NCBI RefSeq assembly: GCF_002259705.1
Contig: NZ_MWWT01000008.1
Span: forward strand, 1 to 64,000
Length of the DNA stretch: 64,000 nucleotides
Direction of reading: 5' to 3'
DNA from: Alloscardovia macacae
Lineage (GTDB): Bacteria > Actinomycetota > Actinomycetes > Actinomycetales > Bifidobacteriaceae
In this document: positions 3,155 to 63,664 of the stretch, in pieces
Layout of the letters: each line of letters begins with the position of its first letter
How positions within the stretch are numbered: the first letter of the stretch is position 1
Position numbers and translations under genes: made by a program
The notes under the pieces: model-generated
Told to the model about the DNA's origin: nothing
The model's input: only the letters and a program-made list of their open reading frames with translations
Databases searched by the model: none

Positions 3155-3952
3155 TTACTCTTCGACTTCGCCGCTCTGAGCGATGGAGATGAGGTCTCCG
3201 ATGGAGTCCACCACGTGGCTCGGGCGGTATGGGAAGGCCTCGACCTGATCCTTCGCGGTCACACCCGTGAGCGTGAGGAAGGTGTGCAGACCTGCTTCCA
3301 CACCAGCGATAATGTCTGTATCCATACGGTCGCCAATCATGGCCGTGGTGGCCGAGTGTGCGCCGAGGCGGTTCAGAGCCGTGCGGAACATGATAGGGTT
3401 CGGCTTACCGATGAAGTATGGTTCGCGGCCGGTCGCATTCGTAATGAGTGCTGCCACAGCACCCGTGGATGGCAGAATGCCCTGGTCGCTCGGACCCGCA
3501 TTATCCGGGTTCGTAGAGATGAAGCGTGCACCGTTCAGAATGAGGCGCACTGCCGTGGTAATGGCTTCAAACGAGTAGTTACGCGTCTCACCGAGGATGA
3601 CGTAATCCGGGTTCCTGTCCGAAAGAATGTATCCAGCCTCGTGCAGAGCCGTGGTGAGGCCTGCCTCACCGATGACGTATGCCGAGCCACCTGGGATGGT
3701 CTGGGAGACGAACTGAGCCGTGGCCAGAGCCGAGGTCCAGATGTGATCTTCTGGAATGTCTATGCCGCTCAGGCGCAGACGTGCCGAAAGGTCACGCGGG
3801 GTGTACATAGGGTTATTCGTCAGAACGAGGAACTTACGGTCATTATCCCGGAGAGCCTGAATGAATTCTGCTGCTCCTGGAAGAGCACGCTGCTCGTGCA
3901 CGAGCACGCCGTCCATGTCTGTCAGCCATGTGTCTATCTGATGTGTGGTCAT
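3155..3952 (-). CDS. HAD-IIA family phosphatase (NagD-like)
   Basis: A 265-residue haloacid-dehalogenase phosphatase. Motif I is LTDMDGVLV (nucleophile Asp near residue 10), LTNNP gives the motif II Thr, GKPNP the motif III Lys and GDRMDTDI motif IV. The long cap between motifs II and III is the type found in NagD, p-nitrophenyl phosphatase and glycerol-phosphate phosphatases. It lies upstream of glmU, and a NagD-like role in amino-sugar phosphate turnover would fit, but this is inference. A second paralogue of the same subfamily is at 13359-14441. Confidence 0.85.
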   Translation of the reverse strand: MTTHQIDTWLTDMDGVLVHEQRALPGAAEFIQALRDNDRKFLVLTNNPMYTPRDLSARLRLSGIDIPEDHIWTSALATAQFVSQTIPGGSAYVIGEAGLTTALHEAGYILSDRNPDYVILGETRNYSFEAITTAVRLILNGARFISTNPDNAGPSDQGILPSTGAVAALITNATGREPYFIGKPNPIMFRTALNRLGAHSATTAMIGDRMDTDIIAGVEAGLHTFLTLTGVTAKDQVEAFPYRPSHVVDSIGDLISIAQSGEVEE

Positions 3953-5295: not shown

Positions 5296-5624
5296 AGTAA
5301 CTCCAAACAGTAAATGAACATCGTTACCTGATATTCTATCGGGGAAGTGTGACAGTGGGGCGCGTGGCGTGTGGGGTGCGTGTGGGGTGGAGCGCGGCGT
5401 GAGACGATGTGCAGTTTTCTTCGCAGCGAAATATACGATGCTGAAAAAAATGGCGACTTTTCTTGAGGTTCGTCGAAAAAGTGCCACTCACATCATGATT
5501 TTTTTTCAACAGACTTCAAGAAAAGTCGCCATTTTTTCACCATCGGCCCGCCCAGCCGCAGCCACAACCGCAGCCAGCCCAGCCAGCCCAGCCGGCCGCA
5601 GTCACAACACAGCCCAGTCCAGCC
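5296..5624. other. Repeat-rich spacer between nadD and prs
   Basis: No gene is supported in these 329 bases. They hold, from left to right: a G/T-rich stretch with repeated GTGTGGGG-type words (about 5340-5400), a 98-bp inverted-repeat element (5442-5539), and a run of degenerate CAGCC-type repeats (about 5548-5632) that ends at the nadD stop codon. The prs promoter must lie in the first part. Confidence 0.6.
5442..5539. repeat. Long inverted repeat, 98 bp
   Basis: The two arms (5442-5469 and 5513-5539) are reverse complements over about 27 nt, with one substitution and one length difference in the A/T run. The arm core reads ATGGCGACTTTTCTTGA. A third partial copy (CGAAAAAGTGCCACT) lies near 5473-5488 in the loop. 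On either strand the stem ends in an A/T run, so it could be a two-way terminator or a small non-autonomous element. Confidence 0.75.
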
Positions 5625-35639: not shown

Positions 35640-35701
35640 AAGTGCCTCCTATGATCGTTCGGTCATCACACACCACCATGATGTGCGTGAGGCACGGGTT
35701 T

Positions 35702-35848
35702 CATGACGTCCGTGCGCCGGCATTACCCGGTATACGTTCTATCGGTCAGAAGATGGGGACGAATCCGCCTCATTCAGACGAACTCCGTCCCACACTTCAT
35801 ATCTCAGCTCGCATAACTCTTCAGCGTTACTCGAGCACCCGTGTCAGT
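35702..35848 (-). promoter_or_regulatory. TPP riboswitch of ykoE, translational
   Basis: On the minus strand: ACGGGTGCTCG, a P3 stem (GCTCG/CGAGC with inner TAAC/GTTA), then CTGAGA (35802-35807), an inserted hairpin GGGACG/CGTCCC (35756-35791), then GAACGTATACCGGGTAATGCC and GGCGCACGGACG. P4 is CGT/ACG, a covariant of the common CCT/AGG. Downstream, CCGTGCCTC can pair either with GCACGG of the aptamer or, through GTGCCTC, with GAGGCAC of the ribosome site. A TATACT -10 box lies at 35853-35858. Confidence 0.85.
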
Positions 35849-35891
35849 TTTTAGTATAGAGGAAGGGGTGGTTTTCCCCACTGTGCCAGAC

Positions 35892-36143
35892 TTAGATGGG
35901 AAAGAACCAGCGGATAATCCATGCGACTACGAACATACTTCCTAAAGATACTATCCACTTATACGGAAGTTCGTTCGTCTCTAGATAGCGTAGAAGTAGT
36001 CCCGTGGTAAGAAACATAAGTATCCACAAGCCAGCCACAGCTGTCTCTTTGTTAGGATACGCTCCCACTGCCACTCTAAAACCGATAAGATACATCACTC
36101 CCACCATGGCGAGACGAACGTATGCCCAGATGATTTTCATCAT
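35892..36143 (-). CDS. Small membrane protein, 83 residues
   Basis: An 83-residue hydrophobic protein with three likely membrane segments (VRLAMVGVMYLIGFRVAVG; VAGLWILMFLTTGLLLRY; WIVSLGSMFVVAWIIRWFF). The codon and base use is AT-richer than the neighbours. It starts 9 nt after the stop of the secreted protein upstream, with only a weak ribosome site (TAGGT), so it is probably coupled to it. No family recognised. Position and topology would fit an immunity or export partner (speculative). Confidence 0.6.
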   Translation of the reverse strand: MMKIIWAYVRLAMVGVMYLIGFRVAVGAYPNKETAVAGLWILMFLTTGLLLRYLETNELPYKWIVSLGSMFVVAWIIRWFFPI

Positions 36144-36152
36144 ACGTGTTAC

Positions 36153-36683
36153 CTACAAAAGTAATTCAAAAGCAGCACGTACTACTGGCCCTGCTATCCA
36201 TTCAGGCACACCAACCATAGAAAGCCCCTTGGTAAGAAAATCTTCACCCATGCCTTGAAGATTAATACCGATATTTATGGCTCTGAACAGGATATCATAT
36301 CCCAAAAATCTTTTAACCTGCACAGGCAGAGGAAGCTTATTAATCGTGGCATCCCAGCTCCTCTTCCCTATATGTTTAAGTGTTTTAAGGGCAGCTTTAA
36401 GAGCAGCTTTCGCTGCAAGCGACTTAGGCCCCCTCTCCTGCTTCAGTGAAGCATGCAAGTCCCGGACCTCTTGAATTTCATCAAGATAACCACGTGACTG
36501 CATCTGAGCATCAAAGACACGCTTAACCTCTGACCAGTTAACTTTTTCTAGTTCCTGCATAGTCCGCGAATTCGTAGAATTTTCTGCAGCCACTGCAGAG
36601 ACAGGATTATATACTGCTAACCCCATCATCAGTGCTAACACTGCACAAATAGAAACTAAAACTTTATGCATGTGATAACGCAT
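36153..36683 (-). CDS. Secreted cationic helical protein, unknown family
   Basis: A 176-residue protein with a signal peptide (HKVLVSICAVLALMMGLAVYNPVSAVAA, cleavage after about residue 32). The mature part has an acidic/coiled section (EIQEVRDLHASLKQERG), then a Lys/Ala-rich amphipathic stretch (AAKAALKAALKTLKHIGKR), then a mildly hydrophobic C-terminus ending WIAGPVVRAAFELLL. GGGAG six nt before the ATG supports the start. The region is clearly AT-richer than its surroundings, suggesting acquisition. I do not recognise the family; a membrane-active or antibacterial role is one possibility. Confidence 0.75.
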   Translation of the reverse strand: MRYHMHKVLVSICAVLALMMGLAVYNPVSAVAAENSTNSRTMQELEKVNWSEVKRVFDAQMQSRGYLDEIQEVRDLHASLKQERGPKSLAAKAALKAALKTLKHIGKRSWDATINKLPLPVQVKRFLGYDILFRAINIGINLQGMGEDFLTKGLSMVGVPEWIAGPVVRAAFELLL

Positions 36684-36855
36684 AAACGACTCCCTTGTTT
36701 CATAATTCTCTCGTCAAGAATTCTTTTGTTTTTATGCGCTCTCTCATCCACACTTGAGTGAACAGTTTTCATAGTATCATCAGACAAATTATTTAGTCAA
36801 GCATACTTACGTAATAATGAAGGGCAGAATTTACTCCCTAATCTACTCCCTATAC

Positions 36856-36895
36856 GAAAGGCTGCACACCCGCTTTTCAGCACGGTGCACAGCCT
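36856..36895 (-). terminator. Hairpin after the M20 peptidase gene
   Basis: Arms AGGCTGCACACC (36859-36870) and GGTGCACAGCCT (36884-36895) pair over 12 positions with two mismatches; TTTCG follows on the minus strand. Confidence 0.6.
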
Positions 36896-36951
36896 CTCTC
36901 AGCATGTTCCAGACTGGTCTGGAATGAGCTAAACGCGCCCTACTTTCGCGT

Positions 36952-38325
36952 CTACTTCCCCGCAGCCAGTCCCTGCAGGATGAGCGCCTCAGTCACCACG
37001 TTATTCTTCAGCGCTGGCAGGCTGATGGATTCGTTTGGCGAGTGCGCGTTTGCCTTCGGATCTTCTGGACCTGTGACGAGCACTTGAGCATGAGGGAAGA
37101 TGCGCTGGAGTTCTGGGATGAATGGGATGGATCCACCCTCACCCTTATTCACAGGCGAGACGTCGAATGCGGACTCCATAGCAGCTTCCGCCACGGCCAC
37201 AGCCGTCGAGTCTGGGTTCATAGCCCAGCCCTGACCGTTTTCACCCGGCTCCACCGTCACTTCTGCACCGAATGGCGCATGAGCGACGAGGAAGTCTGCC
37301 AGTGCCTTCTGTGCTTCAGCTGGCTTCTGGTTCGGAGCCGTACGCAGCGACAGGCGGAAGCGAGCAGAATCCGCTATGACATTAAACGAGCCCTCGACCG
37401 GATGAGCATCGAAACCGATGACGGTAATGCTCGGCTTCGTCCACATGCGCGCAGCGAGCGAGCCCGTACCAGCGAACTGATATCCTTCCACCACAGCAGC
37501 ATCACGGCGCACAGTAGCCTCATCCATGTCGCGCTGCAGACCGCCGATAGGCTCTTCCGCCAGCACGCCAGGAACCGCCACATCCCCATTCTCGTCATAC
37601 AGAGATGAGATGAGCATGGCAGCAAGCGTATTCGCATCGAGGATAGGACCACCGAACTGACCGGAGTGCACAGGATGTCCGAGCACGCGCACAGTCACAT
37701 CCATGTCCGTATTACCACGCAGAGACGTGGTCAGGCTCGGAATGGTATCCGACCAGTTTCCCGAATCTGCCACGATGATGACGTCCGACTCAAACTCATC
37801 CTTATGCTTTTCCACGAAAGGAATGAAGCTCGGCGAGCCCATCTCTTCTTCACCCTCGATGAAGATGCGGATATTCACAGCCAGGTCGTCGCCGAGAGCA
37901 TGCAGCGCGCCCGAATGAATTGCTATTCCGCCGCCGTCATCCGCAGCACCGCGTCCATACAGACGTCCGTCCTTCTCGGTCGCTTCGAATGCAGGCGTCT
38001 CCCATGCGGACTCGTCCGGCACAGGCTGCACGTCATGATGCGCATACAGCAGAACGGTCGGCGCAGAAGGATCCACTATCTTCGAGCCGATCACTTCCCA
38101 CGCACCCGGCGTTCCGTCCGGATTCGTGGACTGCACCACGCGCGCGTCTATACCCTGAGCGCGCATCTCTTCGGCCACGAACTCAGCCGACGCCTTCATA
38201 TGGTCCGCCGTAATGCCCTTCGCAGACACTGCACCGAGCGCTATCTTCTGGGAGAGCACGTCTACCACGCGTGTCCAGTCGGACTCCACGCGAGCGCGGA
38301 TTTCTTCTAATGACAGTTCAGCCAT
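36952..38325 (-). CDS. M20 family metallopeptidase (dipeptidase/CNDP-like)
   Basis: A 457-residue zinc peptidase of the M20 family. Metal ligands are visible in LLYAHHDVQPVP near residue 90, GRGAADDGGG near residue 124, and EGEEEMGSPSF near residue 158; the dimerisation (lid) domain VTVRVLGHPVHSGQFGG follows. No signal peptide. The frame is open to 38427 but AAAGGA lies just before the ATG at 38325. Substrate is probably di- or tripeptides (inference); DapE-type activity is less likely because the lid and length match carnosinase-like dipeptidases. Confidence 0.88.
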   Translation of the reverse strand: MAELSLEEIRARVESDWTRVVDVLSQKIALGAVSAKGITADHMKASAEFVAEEMRAQGIDARVVQSTNPDGTPGAWEVIGSKIVDPSAPTVLLYAHHDVQPVPDESAWETPAFEATEKDGRLYGRGAADDGGGIAIHSGALHALGDDLAVNIRIFIEGEEEMGSPSFIPFVEKHKDEFESDVIIVADSGNWSDTIPSLTTSLRGNTDMDVTVRVLGHPVHSGQFGGPILDANTLAAMLISSLYDENGDVAVPGVLAEEPIGGLQRDMDEATVRRDAAVVEGYQFAGTGSLAARMWTKPSITVIGFDAHPVEGSFNVIADSARFRLSLRTAPNQKPAEAQKALADFLVAHAPFGAEVTVEPGENGQGWAMNPDSTAVAVAEAAMESAFDVSPVNKGEGGSIPFIPELQRIFPHAQVLVTGPEDPKANAHSPNESISLPALKNNVVTEALILQGLAAGK

Positions 38326-41696: not shown

Positions 41697-43130
41697 ATGG
41701 CTCTTTCTACTAAAGAAGACGTAGAAGCTCTCATTAATTCTGAAGGCATCGAATACGTATCCGTACGCTTCACTGACCTCATCGGTGTGCAGCAGCACTT
41801 TAATGTTCCTGCCAGCGAGTTCCTCGATGGTGCTTTCACGGATGGTCTTCCATTCGACGGCTCCTCGGTACAGGGATTCCAGGCCATTAATGAGTCGGAC
41901 ATGAACTTGGTTCCAGACGTCACCACGGCATACATCGACCCATTCCGTAAGCATAAGACGCTGAACGTGGCTTTCTCTATCGTGGATCCTATCACCGGTG
42001 AAGCCTACTCGCGTGATCCTCGTCAGGTAGCAGCAAAGGCTGAAGCTTACCTGAAGTCTACGGGCATCGCAGATACTGCGTCCTTCGCTCCAGAAGCAGA
42101 GTTCTTCGTCTTCGATAAGGTGCGCTTCGAGAACTCCATGCGCACGTCCTTCTACGAGGTAGACTCGGATGAGGCTGGCTGGAACTCGGGGGCAGAGACG
42201 AACATCGACGGCACTCCGAACACTGGCTTTAAGAATCAGGCGAAGCGTGGATACTTCCCTGTTCCACCACTGGATCAGACTGCAGACCTGCGTGACGAAA
42301 TGGTGCATAACCTGCAGAAGGTAGGCCTGACCCTCGAGCGTTCCCACCACGAAGTCGGTGGCGCTGGCCAGGAAGAGATTAACTACCGTTATAACTCTCT
42401 GAAGTACGCAGGCGACGACCTCATGAAGTTCAAGTATGTGGTGCATAACACTGCTGCTCAGTTCGGTAAGGCAGCTACCTTCATGCCGAAGCCTATCGCT
42501 GGGGATAACGGTACGGGTATGCACTGCCACCAGTCCCTGTGGAAGGATGGAAAGCCACTGTTCTACGATGAGAATGGCTACGGTGGACTTTCGGACATCG
42601 CACGCTGGTACATCGGCGGTCTCATCAAGCATGCGGATGCAGTGCTCGCCTTCACGAACCCATCGCTGAACTCGTATAAGCGTCTGGTTCCTGGCTTCGA
42701 AGCTCCAGTAAACCTCGTGTACTCTGCACGTAACCGTTCTGCAGCTATCCGCATCCCACTGGCTGGTACGTCTCCAGCAGCTAAGCGCATCGAGTTCCGT
42801 GCTCCAGATCCTAGCTCGAACCCATTCCTCGCCTTCTCTGCTCAGCTCATGGCAGGCATCGACGGTATCCTGAACCGCATCGAGCCACCAGCGCCAGTAG
42901 ATAAGGATCTCTACGAGCTGCCACCAGAAGAAATGGTAGGCATCAAGACCGTTCCAGGCTCGCTGGACGAAGCTCTGAAGGCTCTGGAAGAAGACCATGA
43001 CTTCCTCACCGCAGGAAACGTCTTCACGGAGGATCTCATCGAGACCTGGATAGACCTGAAGAAGCAGGAGATAGACGCAGCACGCCTGCAGCCTACCCCA
43101 CTGGAGTACCAGCTGTACTTCCATATTTAA
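41697..43130 (+). CDS. glnA: Glutamine synthetase type I
   Basis: The 477-residue main ammonia-assimilating enzyme. Signatures: [10 protein letters not shown] near residue 56, [26 protein letters not shown] near residue 264, and [11 protein letters not shown]. The adenylylation site is kept: DLYELPPEE carries the target Tyr near residue 405, so control by GlnE is expected. GAGAAGG lies before the ATG. It is a single-gene unit with its own promoter and a strong terminator. Confidence 0.97.
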
Positions 43131-43158
43131 GGGTGTCTATCGTTAGATAGTTTCTTCG

Positions 43159-43205
43159 TAGGGGGTGTGTACTGAATGTGATTCGGTACACACCCCTACT
43201 TTTTG
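43159..43205 (+). terminator. Terminator of glnA
   Basis: Stem TAGGGG(G)TGTGTAC / GTACACACCCCTA with a 13-nt loop, then CTTTTTG. Confidence 0.85.
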
Positions 43206-43493
43206 CTCATCGGCTCATTTTCTTCATCACCCTCTTCATAAAATGCGCCGATAAGCAAAAAATAAAATCGAACAGTGGAGTATGGGATTTGACGCCATTA
43301 CTAGAGATAGCTGTTTGCAACTTCATTCGTTTTACGAATCGCTGAAGTAGATATTCCAGAAAAATGAGTACGCATGCGAACGGATTTACACACAACTGGC
43401 CTGACTGTTGACGAGGTGGAGGGCTTTCGCTGTACATCACATGTATTCTCAGCAGTGGTAAAGGTTTATAGCGTGAGCATTTTGAAAAGAAAG

Positions 43494-43552
43494 AACCCCC
43501 AGGTTTGAGCACTCTCACATAAGCTGTGACAGGAGGCTTAGGGGGCTGCTGT
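43494..43552 (-). terminator. Terminator-like structure after the Panacea gene
   Basis: On the minus strand AGCCCCC pairs with GGGGGTT around an inner hairpin TCACA-GCTTA-TGTGA, and TTCTTTCTTTT follows. Confidence 0.5.
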
Positions 43553-43566
43553 TATTGGTTACTTTA

Positions 43567-44115
43567 TCAGAACGCTCTGACACCGTATGCCAAGCGCATG
43601 TATTCTTCTATTTGTTCATAATCATTTTCGCTAATAAAAGACCTCACTGAGATATCCGCAAGATAAGGCCGTGGCATACTCTTTTCCACTCCAGGATCTG
43701 CATCAAGCTGTGAGAAGTAGTAAAGAATACTGTCATGACTGATGATCTGCACAGTCTCTATACCCGACCAGCTCTCACCTAGAGAAGGCTTCTCGCCGCT
43801 GTAGTCCTCGTAGATACGCAGCACTCTTTCCACGAGCATTCGTTCCACGGTAGTAAGCCCTACTGCTTCATCCCCATCCCCTTCAGAGACGAGACATTCA
43901 CGACGAAGGCTATTCATCTGTGTTTCTATTTCGCGTACGATAGGCCCTCTCTTATCCGCCAGAATACCTTCAGGAAAGAGTGGACAGTCTCGCGCCACGA
44001 GCATCCATCCCTGGCAGATGTACAGAAGTCCCTGCAGCATATCAGGGCTAGTCCTCAGGTTTTTCCGCCGCCTCGCTGAAAGAATAAAACGAGCTACATC
44101 CACTACTCCAGCCAT
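43567..44115 (-). CDS. Panacea-domain (DUF4065/SocA-like) protein
   Basis: A 182-residue cytoplasmic protein. Residues 1-110 match the Panacea fold: a start VVDVARFIL, then DMLQGLLYICQGWMLVARDCPLFPEGILADKRGPIVREI, the conserved LQ..LYI.QGW and GP-hydrophobic pattern of DUF4065. Proteins of this family are antitoxins of two-gene toxin-antitoxin pairs (PanA) or proteolytic adaptors like SocA. Here no toxin gene is evident on either side. I start at the ATG at 44115, with GGGGAG nine nt before it; the frame upstream begins only with TTG. Confidence 0.78.
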   Translation of the reverse strand: MAGVVDVARFILSARRRKNLRTSPDMLQGLLYICQGWMLVARDCPLFPEGILADKRGPIVREIETQMNSLRRECLVSEGDGDEAVGLTTVERMLVERVLRIYEDYSGEKPSLGESWSGIETVQIISHDSILYYFSQLDADPGVEKSMPRPYLADISVRSFISENDYEQIEEYMRLAYGVRAF

Positions 44116-44159
44116 GCTCAGCTTCTCCCCTCTCAAACCTGTTTCACTCTTCTCCTCTC

Positions 44160-44190
44160 AGTATAACTTCCCCCACCCCGCGTATACTAT
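44160..44190. promoter_or_regulatory. Mirrored divergent promoters
   Basis: AGTATA (44160-44165, the minus-strand -10 TATACT) and TATACT/TACTAT (44183-44190, plus strand) face away from each other in a symmetrical AGTATA...TATACT pair. The plus promoter ends 7 nt before the hydrolase ATG. The two polymerase footprints would overlap. Confidence 0.55.
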
Positions 44191-44197
44191 AACCACT

Positions 44198-45157
44198 ATG
44201 AAAAAGGTGATACGTCGTGCTCTCATCCTGCTCGTCGCCCTCGCTCTCGTGCTCGGCGGCGCTTTTTTCGCGCTGAAAACACTCTTCCCGGATCTTGAGC
44301 TCACCCCACAGACCATCACGAACATCACGGGTCAGATAGATAAGATCAGCCAGCAGAATAAGGCCTCGAAGCATATCATCAGCCACGACACCACCATCCG
44401 CCGCACCACCGCGGACGGCCAGACCATAAACCTTTACGGTAAGGTCTATGCTCCGTCGAATTACCAGCGCTTGAAGCTTCCCGTGATGATTCTCGCGCAC
44501 GGATATAATTCGAATGCAGACTTCGCAGACTCTCTGGCCCCGAAAGTAGCTGAGCAGGGGTACGTGGTCTACGCGTTTGACTTTTATGGCGGCTCCACAA
44601 ATTCGCGCAGTGGAGACCGTGACATGCTGGACATGTCCATTCAGACTGAGAAGGCTGATCTCGAAGCCGTGCTCGCCCACTGGCATCAGCAGACGTACGT
44701 GGACACAGGTCACATTTATCTCACCGGCATCAGCCATGGCGGTCTCATTTCTACCATGGTCGCCGCCGCCCACCCGAAAGACGTCCGCGCGCTCATTCTT
44801 CTCGCTCCGGCGTATAACGTACCAGACCTCGTGAAGGATGGTTACCAGAAGCTCGGCTTTACGAGCGAGGATCAGATTCCGCCGTCTGTCACGTATGAGA
44901 ATCGTACCATCGGCCGCCGCTACGTCCTCGACGCGCTCCATTATGACCCCACTGCGGACCAGAAAGCGTATACGGGACCCGTTCTTATCATCCACGGCAC
45001 GGCGGATGAGCTCGTTCCCTATAGCTACAGCGAGGCTGCGGTGAAGAATTTCGCGCATGCTCAGCTCGTTCCGCTCGAGGGGACAGGTCATACGGCAGAT
45101 GCGCAGGCCATCTCGAGCGCTCTACCGCAGCTCGCCGCGTTCCTGCTTCAGAATTAA
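44198..45157 (+). CDS. Membrane-anchored alpha/beta hydrolase
   Basis: A 319-residue serine hydrolase. An N-terminal membrane segment (VIRRALILLVALALVLGGAFFAL, residues 4-26) anchors it; there is no clear cleavage site. The alpha/beta core begins LPVMILAHGYNSN, with nucleophile in LTGISHGG near residue 188, the Asp in IIHGTADELVPY and the His in GTGHT near residue 303. Substrate unknown: esterase or acyl-peptidase are options. The ATG is 7 nt after a -10 box, so the mRNA is probably leaderless. Its 3' end overlaps the convergent SGNH gene by 36 nt. Confidence 0.85.
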   Translation: MKKVIRRALILLVALALVLGGAFFALKTLFPDLELTPQTITNITGQIDKISQQNKASKHIISHDTTIRRTTADGQTINLYGKVYAPSNYQRLKLPVMILAHGYNSNADFADSLAPKVAEQGYVVYAFDFYGGSTNSRSGDRDMLDMSIQTEKADLEAVLAHWHQQTYVDTGHIYLTGISHGGLISTMVAAAHPKDVRALILLAPAYNVPDLVKDGYQKLGFTSEDQIPPSVTYENRTIGRRYVLDALHYDPTADQKAYTGPVLIIHGTADELVPYSYSEAAVKNFAHAQLVPLEGTGHTADAQAISSALPQLAAFLLQN

Positions 45158-59101: not shown

Positions 59102-62100
59102 CTACGAACGGCGACGCAGTCTCAGCGCTACTCCTGCAGCTGCAGCTGCGAGAGCTGCGATGAGCGCGGGCAGAATAGCTGACCCCGTCTTCGCAAGTCC
59201 CGGCTTAGCTGGCTCGCCTGGAGTGTTCGGAACGGTAGGCACCACCTTCGTATTCGTGATAACGAATGCGTAGGCATTCTGCGCATCCTGCTCGATGTGG
59301 CTGGTGTAGCCTGATACAGCATCTTCGGATACGGAGTATTCTATCTTGTCTCCATTCTCATTTATCACTGGAAGCTTCTCGAAGACGTGCCTCCAGCCAT
59401 TCTGCTCAGTGAGCGTGACGCGCTGAACTGGCTTTCCGCTAGCCAGGAGAGTCACTGTGATGTCCTGAGGCCTTGTGTTCAGGGACTTCTCGTCTCCCTT
59501 CCAGACCTTCCTCACTGTGACCTTCGTCTTCTCTACCGTAGGCTCTTCAGGCGTGCGTGGCTCGTCTGTCTCCAGAGGCATGTTATACACGGTAAAGCCT
59601 TCTACCTGAGAGCCATCTACTTTCACTGCATAGTCTGTACCATCGAAGGTAGCCTTCGAATCTGCTTCACCCACTTCGTGGACTGTGTAGGTGGCGTTCG
59701 TCTCGAGGTCTATATTCTCGAAGCGGCTCGTGAAGTTATTCGCACTATTCAGCTCGAGAGACCGGCCCGTAGATGTGCCATTCTTCAGCAGCTCCACCGT
59801 TACTGGGGTGGTCTTCTGCGTATCTGGCTCGCCCTTCGCCGTTAGCCACACCTTCTTTACTGGGATATCGAGGAAGGACTTCGGATTTGTAATGGTGAAG
59901 CCATCCTTTTCATTCCCGCTATATTCCGGCGCGTTATATCCTGGCACTGCCTCTTCTGAGACGGTGTAGGTTATCTTCTGCCCCTGCGCACCGACCACAG
60001 GCAGCTTCTCGAAGGTGTGCTTCCAGGAGTCCTGCGCAGTCAGGGTGGCAGACTGGACTGGGCTTCGATTTGCGAGAAGTGTGACGGTAATGCTCTGCGG
60101 ACGCTGCTTCGCTACATCATTACGGTCATCCCAGACCTTCGTCACTGGGATATTTACCCTCTCAGCGGTAGGCACATCTGGAGTACGCGGCTCATCCGTC
60201 TCGAGTGGCATGTTATAGACAGTGAAGCCTTCGACCTGAGAACCATATACTCTCACTGCGTAGTCTGTGCCATCGAAGGTAGCCTTCGAATCCTGCTCTC
60301 CCACCTCGTGGACGTTATACGTGGCATCCGTCTCTAGCTCGATGTTCTCGAACTTTCCGGAGAATTTATTCTGCGCGTTCAGTTTCACAGTCTGCCCGGT
60401 AGGAGTGTCATTCTTCACAAGCTCCACAGTCACAGGCGTCGTCTTCTGAGTATCCGGTTCACCCTTCGCATCCAGCCACACCTTCTTCACCGGAATGTCG
60501 ATGAACGACTTCGGATTCGTAATGGTAAATCCATCCGTCGCATTCCCCGAGTACTGAGGAGTACCGTAGCCTGGAACAGCATCTTCAGACACGGTATACG
60601 TTATCTTTTCACCCTGTGCATCGGCCACTGGCAGGTTTTCGAAGGTATGCTTCCACGAGTTTTCAGCATTCAGGGTGGTGCTCTGTACAGCTTCGCCGTT
60701 AGCGAGCAGATGGATGGTTACGCTCTGCGGACGCTTCTTCGCCACATCATTACGGTCATCCCAGACCTTCGTCACAGGAATATCCAGGAACTGCTTAGGA
60801 TTCGTAATAGTGAAACCATCCGTCACGTTTCCAGAGTACTGAGGAGCGCCGTAGCCTGATACTGCATCTTCAGAGACGGTATACGCTATCTCATTACCTG
60901 CTTCATCATGCTTCGGGAGACCTTCAAAGGTATGCTTCCATACTCCTGAATCATCTGGCGTGATGTCTGCTTCAGCCACGGTAGCCGTCCCATTCAGGAC
61001 ACGCACATGGATATGGTCTGGACGCGAGTTCGCTGCATTCTCACGGTCGTTCCACACCTTCGTCACCGGTATAGAGACGAGATCCTTCTTTTTATTATCG
61101 ATGGTCAGCGTGTAGTACTTTTTCGCCGGCGTAGGGTCTGGCTGAGGCTCAGGATCTTCGCCACCAGTCACCGTGATATTACGTATCTGGATAGGCTGGT
61201 CAGTATCTGCGGCACCGGCGAGAACCTGAGGAATAAGAATGTATGTCGTATCCGACGCAGTATCTTCGTAAAGGAAGAGATTATACGTGTCACGATAAGG
61301 ATTCCCAGCTTCCGTATCCTCCGTATAGACAGCCTGCACATTCTTCGTCTTCAGAGCGATATCACTGAACTTCAGAGGATTATAGCTCTTCACCCAGCGC
61401 TTGAGATAGGAGTCGTAATGCATCGTCTCTTCCGTCAGAAGATTACTCGTCGTGTAATCATACAGATCATAATTCACCCTAAAGTCGCGGTCTTTATCCG
61501 CGAACTTATCTCCATCCTCAGCGCGTAGCAGCTCGAAGGAGAGCTTACGTTCCGTCGGCTGAACAGGCTGTGGTGAAGGCTGGTCAGGTGTCACCTGCTT
61601 CTCTGCTAGAGGAGAGATAGTCACATCATATCCGTCGTGATTCAGCTCCTTCACGTAGAGAATGTCAGTGGTCTTATGCCCGAAAAGCTCTGCCTGAAGA
61701 TCTGTCACATCATAATGGAAGTTATTCTCCTTCGTGAGCTTCACACGCTGGATGAGCCAGTCTTTTTCCTCACCGCCCACAGTAGCCTTCGCACGAAGCT
61801 CCACCTCCACGTCATGCTTATCTGCATCTGTGACGTTCCCGCTCCACGTCTTATCCATGGAGATATCGATGAGTGGGCTGTTCGGACGACCGAAGACGAC
61901 GTTACCATTTGTGCCTACGCCACCGCCAAAACTCGCAGTATTATTCGTAATCATCAGACTCGAATTTGCGCGAACGAGGTCTTTATCGAAGCCAGAATCA
62001 AGCTGAGTCTTCACGGCCAGGTCCGTATTAATATTTTTTATCTCCACTGGCTCTGCCTGAGCGCTGCCCGTACGTACTGCCCGAGTATCGGTCACATACT

Positions 62101-63664
62101 CCATATAGGCACCCGTATTAGCACGATTTGTCAGAGTAACGGAATAGTCGCTTCCTGTATTCTTACGGGTGCTTACCAGTCCAGATCCTTCATACGAAGC
62201 ATCATTATTATCCCCGATGAACGCACCATGATCCGCATAAAAGACACCTGAACCCGTAGGACAGAACCAGATACCACCACCCGAGCGGCTATACATATTT
62301 ATACCCGTTTCAGAAGTTTCATTTCTGAAGTTCCGTGTCGCTTTATTTCCCTCGATGTACGCATTTTCGAGATGAAGAGTGTAGGGATATGTACTCACAT
62401 AGACACCACCACCCTGCTTTGCAGCAGAGTTTCCATCGATAACACCACCTGTGACATACGCCCCATTCGTCGATACGAAGAGACCGCCACCAGATATCCG
62501 CGAGCGATTATTCGTTATCTTTCCACCCTGCATGTTCAGCGTAACAGGGAAGTACTTACTCCACTCATCCATAAGAACAGCGTAGTTCTTTGGCTGAGCT
62601 ATATCATCACCACTCACAGCCCAGTCAGAAAGGAGCATGCCGCCGCCCTGAATAGCAGCGTTCCCCGTGACTTCCACGGTACTGGTAGCAGGAATGTCTA
62701 TCTTTGCAGCAGTGTGTGCAGCCAGACCCCCACCGTAGAATCCACCGTTAGCACTTATCTTTCCGCCATTGAGTGTGACTGTGGCTATCTTCTGTGTCTT
62801 AAACTGAGCCACGTTCGTAGCTTGGCGGTTTGTGCTATAGGCATCCGCGAAGCCCGCAAGTATGCCACCAGCACCTCCTTTATTTCCGGATATTTCACCG
62901 CCATTCATAGTAAAAGTAGCGCCTGGAGAGACGTTAATGCCACCAGCACCCCAGCTATCCGAGATAACACGACTAATGCCGAAAGACTTCTGATTCGATG
63001 CCTGGTTCCCGGTGATCACGCCACCATTCATGGTCATCTGAGCACCGTCACCGAGGTAGATGCCGCCTGCACCATATGCCGCAGAGAGATCACCATAGTC
63101 ATTATCGCGAATAGTTCCACCATTCATCGTCACTACTGCAGATGTCCCAGTAGCGTAAATCGGTGCATTAAACAGACCACGAGAACGTGCATCGTTCTTA
63201 AACGTTCCACCGTCGAGAGTCAGTGGACCGCGAGTAAAGATAAAACCACCTTCGTTTCTTTCCGAGGAGTCATTTGGCACATTCGCTCCATCGAACGTGA
63301 CACCATCGGTCACCGTAAGCGACGCATCAGCTGCCACATCCAGCATAGTGCTCTTATACGCCGCCGTCTTATACAGCCGTGCTTCTCCTCCCACAGCCGC
63401 CAGCGTCACTTTCTTACCTGTAATGCTCAGCTTCTCGGTCGCTTCATAGTCTCCAGCTGCGAGACCTATCACTACCTCGCTGCGACTGGCATCAGCCAGA
63501 GCATCCTTGAGCTCTGCATAGGAATGTACGGTCACATCCGGGGTATATGTCGGCGTATCCGCTGCGAAAGCGGGGCCACTCACCAGACCACTCACAGGCA
63601 TCAGCACTGCTACCAGTACGGTTATAAGCATGACGGAATAGAGCTTTTTCGCTGCTCGTGACAT
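59102..63664 (-). CDS. Cell-wall-anchored adhesin: beta-helix plus six CnaB domains, LAKTG signal
   Basis: A 1,520-residue surface protein. Signal peptide residues 1-35 (KKLYSVMLITVLVAVLMPVSG...AFA). Residues about 40-600 are a parallel beta-helix with many NGG.I..N repeats (TMNGGTIRDN, TMNGGEISGN). After a linker come six CnaB-type domains (about 862-1473); each has the Lys in VTKVW/VKKVW, the Glu in SEDAV/HEVGE and the Asn in TITNPK/VYNMP for internal isopeptide bonds. The C-terminus is LAKTGS, a hydrophobic segment and RLRRRS, a sortase signal of the LAxTG kind. I chose the ATG at 63664 (AGGGAG before it); an ATG at 63709 is almost at the transcription start. Confidence 0.9.
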   Translation of the reverse strand: MSRAAKKLYSVMLITVLVAVLMPVSGLVSGPAFAADTPTYTPDVTVHSYAELKDALADASRSEVVIGLAAGDYEATEKLSITGKKVTLAAVGGEARLYKTAAYKSTMLDVAADASLTVTDGVTFDGANVPNDSSERNEGGFIFTRGPLTLDGGTFKNDARSRGLFNAPIYATGTSAVVTMNGGTIRDNDYGDLSAAYGAGGIYLGDGAQMTMNGGVITGNQASNQKSFGISRVISDSWGAGGINVSPGATFTMNGGEISGNKGGAGGILAGFADAYSTNRQATNVAQFKTQKIATVTLNGGKISANGGFYGGGLAAHTAAKIDIPATSTVEVTGNAAIQGGGMLLSDWAVSGDDIAQPKNYAVLMDEWSKYFPVTLNMQGGKITNNRSRISGGGLFVSTNGAYVTGGVIDGNSAAKQGGGVYVSTYPYTLHLENAYIEGNKATRNFRNETSETGINMYSRSGGGIWFCPTGSGVFYADHGAFIGDNNDASYEGSGLVSTRKNTGSDYSVTLTNRANTGAYMEYVTDTRAVRTGSAQAEPVEIKNINTDLAVKTQLDSGFDKDLVRANSSLMITNNTASFGGGVGTNGNVVFGRPNSPLIDISMDKTWSGNVTDADKHDVEVELRAKATVGGEEKDWLIQRVKLTKENNFHYDVTDLQAELFGHKTTDILYVKELNHDGYDVTISPLAEKQVTPDQPSPQPVQPTERKLSFELLRAEDGDKFADKDRDFRVNYDLYDYTTSNLLTEETMHYDSYLKRWVKSYNPLKFSDIALKTKNVQAVYTEDTEAGNPYRDTYNLFLYEDTASDTTYILIPQVLAGAADTDQPIQIRNITVTGGEDPEPQPDPTPAKKYYTLTIDNKKKDLVSIPVTKVWNDRENAANSRPDHIHVRVLNGTATVAEADITPDDSGVWKHTFEGLPKHDEAGNEIAYTVSEDAVSGYGAPQYSGNVTDGFTITNPKQFLDIPVTKVWDDRNDVAKKRPQSVTIHLLANGEAVQSTTLNAENSWKHTFENLPVADAQGEKITYTVSEDAVPGYGTPQYSGNATDGFTITNPKSFIDIPVKKVWLDAKGEPDTQKTTPVTVELVKNDTPTGQTVKLNAQNKFSGKFENIELETDATYNVHEVGEQDSKATFDGTDYAVRVYGSQVEGFTVYNMPLETDEPRTPDVPTAERVNIPVTKVWDDRNDVAKQRPQSITVTLLANRSPVQSATLTAQDSWKHTFEKLPVVGAQGQKITYTVSEEAVPGYNAPEYSGNEKDGFTITNPKSFLDIPVKKVWLTAKGEPDTQKTTPVTVELLKNGTSTGRSLELNSANNFTSRFENIDLETNATYTVHEVGEADSKATFDGTDYAVKVDGSQVEGFTVYNMPLETDEPRTPEEPTVEKTKVTVRKVWKGDEKSLNTRPQDITVTLLASGKPVQRVTLTEQNGWRHVFEKLPVINENGDKIEYSVSEDAVSGYTSHIEQDAQNAYAFVITNTKVVPTVPNTPGEPAKPGLAKTGSAILPALIAALAAAAAGVALRLRRRS
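59537..60793 (-). repeat. Tandem duplication of a CnaB domain pair
   Basis: Two copies of about 630 bp (60167-60793 and 59537-60166) encode the same pair of CnaB domains, one of each subtype. Both end in the linker YNMPLETDEPRTP. They differ at scattered positions. Confidence 0.85.

Follow-up and report, generated by a model that had tools for sequence, protein, structure and literature searches.

Two adjacent minus-strand genes of Alloscardovia macacae (Bifidobacteriaceae; assembly GCF_002259705.1), located within positions 1 to 64,000 of contig NZ_MWWT01000008.1 (a stretch of 64,000 nucleotides, here called the window), very likely code for a bacteriocin and its immunity protein, two functions that we infer from sequence. 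The pair consists of a predicted Sec-exported precursor with a C-terminal domain shared by a broader family and a small membrane partner, both of which are recognizable in the window, and the members belong to a widespread family without a model in the libraries searched.

The first gene (36153 to 36683, minus strand) is an open reading frame (ORF) with an ATG start, recognized by its tblastn homologues and its profile score relative to shuffles, and is predicted to code for a secreted bacteriocin-like precursor of 176 amino acids (aa). A predicted Sec-type signal peptide spans approximately residues 1 to 33 (36585 to 36683, minus strand) and includes a signal-like hydrophobic stretch at residues 8 to 20 (Kyte-Doolittle mean of 2.89 in a 13-residue window), with cleavage placed by eye near the junction of AVAA and EN. 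It is followed by a pro-region (36441 to 36584, minus strand) assigned by charge computation, with a net charge of -2 over residues 31 to 81, and by a predicted cationic toxin domain of 95 aa at the C terminus (36156 to 36440, minus strand; net charge +7), which is assigned from alignments, an AlphaFold2 model, and charge. This domain has a Lys/Ala-rich stretch (KSLAAKAALKAALKTLKHIGKRSW) near its beginning, an ERGP motif near its start, and a hydrophobic end, AFELLL. The second gene (35892 to 36143, minus strand) begins with ATG 9 nt past the stop codon of the first and codes for the candidate immunity protein, 83 aa long with three hydrophobic segments in a Kyte-Doolittle scan; its assignment draws on the ORF, these segments, and family-wide adjacency. 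The signal peptide and the membrane segments of both proteins were called from hydrophobicity only. A first-pass annotation had described two adjacent genes in an AT-rich stretch, one with a signal peptide and a Lys/Ala region and the second, 9 nt downstream, with three membrane helices, and these features are confirmed here; the pair lies in the lowest-GC kilobase sampled, and its strand, absent from that annotation, is minus.

The secreted protein family

Searched by tblastn against plasmids, the window protein matches 15 records with E values down to 1e-7 (Priestia, Bacillus, and eleven small Apilactobacillus kunkeei plasmids), and all matches reach the C-terminal end. Homologues of the C-terminal domain are present in 30 plasmid records with the B. 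arachidis query and in 32 with the query from locus L050, and queries with relatives add plasmids of Staphylococcus, Enterococcus, Streptococcus, Lactococcus, Latilactobacillus, and Paraclostridium. Several of the carrier plasmids are small (4 to 13 kb), and others range from 28 kb to 1.08 Mb. The same putative toxin gene is on A. kunkeei plasmids of 6.3 and 9.75 kb (L012 and L013), with the depositor tags TOXIN1 and UNKNOWN1; the paper describing those isolates uses the word "toxin" twice in its main text, in the introduction and the references, on other matters (PMC9648514).

Profile searches identify the family in 16 of 348 genomes from the order of Bacillaceae SAS-127 and in 18 of 345 from the order of Apilactobacillus zhangqiuensis, counts that include seeds and some weak or broken copies. 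A wider phylum sample has it in 3 of 329 genomes (including the seed), and the Bifidobacteriaceae have it in 6 of 189 (including the window). A single-sequence search of genome contigs had found no relative and gave the impression of a lone member, which proved wrong when the wider profile found five more genomes of this family. A narrower first profile gave no match in 395 other genomes of the window's phylum, a sample searched with that profile only. Three weak matches from 188 other genomes of the family (L002 to L004; E values of 0.005 to 0.007) were rejected as relatives, being short pieces of long frames with 16 to 17 bits, one of them with stops. Against a profile built from 36 other members, some of which were gathered with a profile containing the window protein, the window protein reaches 59.5 bits and the best of its 2,000 shuffles 7.0 bits; because of this difference the 176-aa ORF is, by this measure, more than a chance ORF, and the single-sequence tblastn search alone already gives an E value of 1e-7. 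Neither phage records (B. arachidis query) nor viral contigs gave a match, and therefore a phage cargo gene is not supported.

At an E value of 0.01, any given Pfam, NCBIfam, or PHROG model matches at most one of the 33 members scanned, and any PADLOC model at most two; the best library E value in these scans is 0.00079. Weak matches to SOCS_box, spectrin, 6-phosphogluconate phosphatase, and the like were dismissed as chance. The architecture of the precursor is widely shared: of 38 non-redundant members, 34 have a hydrophobic signal-like stretch near the start; of the 35 that are at least 145 aa long, 31 have a pro-region with a net negative charge, and the C-terminal 90 residues carry a net positive charge in 28 of 35. 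In the alignment the conserved unit is the whole domain of 75 to 95 residues, not a short peptide, and its end is hydrophobic. Near the domain start, 16 of 38 members carry an RG(K/P/R) motif (KQERGPKSL in the window), which may mark a processing site. The export signal, the domain, the charge pattern, and the partner are clear or strongly indicated from the sequences.

Two loci have further features of note. In L028 (766 to 1803), the toxin domain is at the end of a longer 345-aa frame, and a small membrane ORF still follows; the middle of the frame is presumably a fibronectin-type domain, as judged by eye. Directly 3' of the toxin-family member in L088 is a gene (676 to 1197) whose 173-aa product also looks secreted; this product is rich in Ala and Lys in its C-terminal half, matches no Pfam family, and may be a further bacteriocin-like protein.

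The small membrane partner

An adjacent small membrane-protein ORF is present for 35 of 43 members, compared with 5 of 81 control ORFs of the same loci, and for 31 of 38 non-redundant members (Fisher p = 9e-17 versus controls). A partner was scored as an ORF of 45 to 125 aa with at least two hydrophobic segments and within 120 nt, and the controls are other ORFs of at least 120 aa. The 35 partners are mostly downstream on the same strand (27), with six downstream on the opposite strand and two upstream. An earlier count, with ORFs of 45 to 110 aa and fewer members, gave 31 of 37 versus 8 of 80 controls, and when the flanks were shuffled in 100 rounds, on average 0.5 and at most 3 of 37 had a partner. 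Excluded from both partner counts are fragments, frames with stops, or cut contigs (L035, L037, L043, and L056). Also excluded are duplicates or near copies (L013, L015, L019 to L024, L027, L039, L051, L057, L076, and L078), repeat copies (L001, L077, and L082), and SAS-127 (L014, the same as L025), in which the frame is without a regular upstream start, although a small hydrophobic frame follows it; L075 and L079 to L081 were replaced by longer stretches (L085 to L088).

Partner sequences are strongly diverged while the toxin domain is conserved, and the strongest partner similarities are between close toxin types (e.g., L008/L028, L045/L050, L060/L061, and L052/L053/L054). Bacteriocins and their immunity genes show just such a contrast between a conserved secreted domain and a small membrane partner that diverges. 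These partner counts and the divergence, together with the many plasmid carriers, support the layout of a secreted effector with an immunity partner that the first-pass annotation had put forward; it had also named homologues routinely found alone as grounds for rejecting a pair, and the secreted gene usually has its partner. Conservation of the pair across the Bifidobacteriaceae, which it had listed as a check, did not hold: the window pair was found in this genome alone, with other toxin-family members in five other genomes of the family. The 83-aa protein is weakly similar to the partner of L028 (E value of 0.0097), and the three partners scanned for domains (those of the window, L008, and L085) gave no convincing match.

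Partners are absent from the gene table used in several plasmid records (e.g., B. arachidis, B. smithii, A. kunkeei, and S. epidermidis SE456), the plasmid gene table being incomplete by its own statement. Small membrane ORFs missing from gene tables include those at 3414 to 3692 of L016 (minus strand), near 5330 to 5500 of L009, and after 6303 of L010.

Proposed mechanism and alternatives

In the mechanism that we propose, the 176-aa protein would be exported by the Sec pathway, with the N-terminal pro-region, acidic in most relatives, keeping the cationic C-terminal domain quiet. A protease, either of the host or environmental, would free the last 75 to 95 residues near the partly conserved RG(K/P) stretch, and the freed helical domain would insert into or open the membrane of related Gram-positive cells, directly or via a membrane receptor. 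The 83-aa three-segment membrane protein would block the toxin in the producer. Release, killing, the membrane target, and immunity are the steps that we infer, and protease release with direct membrane action has roughly an even chance of being correct. No dedicated transporter or modifying enzyme is seen beside the pair, and the format of one toxin gene and one immunity gene could be one of the simplest among widespread bacteriocin systems.

The best reading by analogy is that this is a family without a library model, yet of a known kind, working like dysgalacticin with DysI or like PAMP. As described in the available part of PMC8308785, dysgalacticin is a plasmid-encoded protein of 220 aa whose 28-aa leader directs it to Sec export, its adjacent gene codes for the membrane-associated immunity factor DysI, and membrane permeabilization is reported; dysgalacticin and streptococcin A-M57 are class III, non-lytic bacteriocins, and the former acts on the glucose/mannose phosphotransferase system. 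Like these two, and compared by description only, the window protein has a signal-like stretch and a long precursor (176 aa); no S. pyogenes or S. dysgalactiae record is among the plasmid matches of all family queries. PAMP of Propionibacterium jensenii is made as a 198-aa precursor with a 27-aa signal peptide and an active C-terminal fragment, and is activated by a protease outside the cell (PMC5756557, available in part). The window protein resembles it, again by description only, in its signal-like start, pro-region, and C-terminal domain, whereas the available part of that source mentions no immunity partner. The haloarchaeal secreted precursor HFX_0892 is cut by the extracellular protease halolysin into an antagonistic helical fragment (PMC12893001, available in part); its likeness to the window protein is by description only, and it differs in that its active part is N-terminal and the protein archaeal. 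No recognized family member is named in the available parts of PMC9648514, PMC5756557, PMC8308785, PMC10710834, PMC4573289, and PMC12893001, and the bifidobacterial clusters listed in the available part of PMC4573289 are lantibiotic-like.

The predicted structure offers a further comparison. An AlphaFold2 model of the C-terminal domain, made with three sequences, has six helices at moderate confidence (predicted local distance difference test [pLDDT] score of 77.5), and it gave no significant fold match; these are the two observations that bear on a saposin-like fold, a trait of circular bacteriocins. Pore-forming colicins pair a toxin domain made of helices with an immunity protein of several membrane helices, and the window pair is similar in its predicted helical domain and multi-segment partner; unlike colicins, it is Gram-positive, with a Sec-type signal and no receptor or translocation domains seen.

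Several observations weigh against a bacteriocin with its immunity gene, or weaken the evidence for it. A partner is lacking by the scoring used for 8 of 43 members (7 of 38 non-redundant), and the partner counts cover the fetched loci, with many of the listed plasmid matches lying outside them. Three of these misses (L010, L017, and L018) each have a short hydrophobic frame just downstream; as for the others, a membrane ORF lies at a greater distance upstream in L084, the toxin domains of L031 and L033 are acidic, L088 is followed by the second secreted protein, and L087 has none. The acidic C-terminal domains of L031 and L033 themselves depart from the cationic pattern and are possibly decayed. 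Weak partner similarities also cross toxin types, and the window's 83-aa protein has no match in 72,556 plasmid records; in 188 other genomes of the family it has just two, both weak and containing stops. One of two family copies in genome G124 is a weak match (E value of 0.0047) without an in-frame signal stretch, and for these two reasons it may be broken. Promoter-like sites around the window pair do not exceed chance, and a search for a terminator near it found none. The full-length AlphaFold2 model is poor (pLDDT score of 46), and a Foldseek search with the fold gave nothing significant (best E value of 0.53). The top row of the VIA comparison is the pore-forming colicin S4 (Z = 5.1; root mean square deviation, 3.9; 87 of 95 residues), a score below the level that counts for helical bundles and within the range of common helical arrangements; with colicin A lower (Z = 3.3), the modeled likeness to colicin S4 is only a lead. 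In the literature searched we found no member reported to be a bacteriocin, and single members may have been described elsewhere.

A secreted protein next to a membrane protein is also a sensor layout, and the pair could be a cell-envelope regulator or signaling pair in which the small membrane protein senses the secreted one or is under its control, an option raised in the first-pass annotation. Response regulators do adjoin relatives in genomes G112 and G124, but none of the three partners scanned has a convincing domain match, the partners vary widely between clades while the secreted domain is conserved, no histidine kinase or response regulator is named in the annotated plasmid stretches, and a cationic domain with a hydrophobic C terminus is toxin-like; this option is not favored and is quite unlikely. 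The same regulators, beside three relatives in the two genomes, would fit a pheromone secreted for a two-component system, with the membrane protein as its transporter or protease. However, it is a whole domain of 75 to 95 residues that is conserved rather than a short peptide, and the partner seems too small and variable for either role, making a pheromone very unlikely.

SdpC and SdpI are a cannibalism toxin pair, with SdpAB as the processing genes, and a cannibalism or plasmid-maintenance toxin of this type, killing mainly siblings that have lost the pair, would overlap with a bacteriocin and differ from it mainly in target. The secreted precursor, the membrane partner, and several small-plasmid carriers are consistent with such a toxin, but we consider it unlikely, since the genes flanking the window pair (ECF ATPase/CbiQ, ABC_cobalt, and M20 peptidase) are not processing genes and the window copy is chromosomal by its conserved flanks. 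No SdpC family is named in the Pfam scan of the 33 members, a scan that included no direct comparison with an SdpC sequence. The cationic, predicted all-helical domain with its hydrophobic C terminus could also suggest a circular bacteriocin, cut out of the precursor and joined at its ends. Pfam and NCBIfam contain circular-bacteriocin models, but none matched any of the 33 members at an E value of 0.01; the sole ABC genes flanking the pair are those of the ECF transporter, not a maturation cluster, and to our knowledge a Sec signal with a long pro-region is not the usual circular-bacteriocin leader, so that this explanation is extremely improbable.

If the pair and its relatives are indeed bacteriocins with immunity genes, a simple two-gene antibacterial system is hidden among the hypothetical proteins of bacteria from soil, food, bees, skin, and the gut, and its immunity genes are often unlisted, several partner genes being missing from gene tables. 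Such pairs would be easy to express and assay and could supply new narrow-spectrum antibacterials, and they might account for some of the competition of bifidobacteria with bacilli. With a conserved toxin and diverging immunity partners, toxin-immunity specificity would be testable by partner swaps.

Genomic setting of the pair and its relatives

Some relatives in the Bifidobacteriaceae are adjacent to regulators, forming response-regulator-linked loci in two genomes (L085, 1436 to 4277; L086, 4357 to 7304; L087, 3172 to 5903). G112 is organized with a response regulator (Response_reg and GerE), a kinase-like protein with a weak HisKA_3 match below the cut-off, the toxin, and a membrane protein with four hydrophobic segments. 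Both G124 copies adjoin a response regulator of the same type (GerE, LuxR-type) and a large neighbor, one of which has a weak HisKA_3 match and the other no Pfam match. No response-regulator or kinase genes are seen in the ORF list for 31 to 42 kb of the window, where the domain scan covered the three flanking genes.

In a tree of 35 domains (L031, L033, L034, L036, L038, L049, L084, and L087 were left out), the window is placed among long Bacillus-type domains and three other Bifidobacteriaceae members among short Enterococcus-type domains, both with good support. The Bifidobacteriaceae label requires three changes on the tree, a number as low in 60 of 500 shuffles. These changes are most simply read as repeated horizontal entry, the alternative being one gain with losses, and the direction of transfer was presumably from a plasmid-borne family of the Bacilli into the Bifidobacteriaceae. 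It is reasonably likely that the members form a large superfamily of Sec-exported, protease-released helical bacteriocins with highly variable small membrane immunity proteins, plasmid-borne among Bacilli, with probably more than one entry into the Bifidobacteriaceae and partly under response-regulator control there.

The window pair itself is in an interval (35752 to 36963) containing an AT-rich islet, with a thiamine pyrophosphate (TPP) riboswitch-like element and an energy-coupling factor (ECF) transporter gene on one side and an M20 peptidase gene on the other, as defined by sibling alignment, GC content, and flank domains. The domain scan identifies the three flanking genes as coding for an ECF ATPase/CbiQ protein, an ABC_cobalt component, and an M20 peptidase. 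The TPP riboswitch-like element (35691 to 35852, minus strand; 44.4 bits versus a gathering threshold of 54.3) is upstream of the ECF transporter component gene, and the islet is just beyond. In four sibling genomes of the genus, the conserved flanks are separated by 182, 322, 270, and 891 bp, compared with about 1.2 kb in the window, so that the gap is much shorter in three of the four; the pair therefore looks like an insertion into a conserved chromosomal context, and these flanks mark the window copy as chromosomal. The islet has only short, unconvincing repeats. The 891-bp gap, in sibling genome G008, contains a single AT-rich gene (L071, 603 to 950) for a 115-aa protein with hydrophobic segments, no Pfam match, and a weak resemblance to the partner of L032 (E value of 0.0012). 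This may be an orphan immunity gene, and for that reason the gap between the ECF and M20 genes may be an integration spot.

The GC content is 0.435 for the 176-aa gene and 0.448 for the 83-aa gene, compared with 0.577 for the window, and positions 35901 to 36900 are its lowest-GC kilobase (about 0.43; 1-kb windows, step of 100 bases). Other AT-rich stretches of the window are at 42701 to 44300 and 61201 to 63000, with GC contents of 0.46 to 0.49 per kb.
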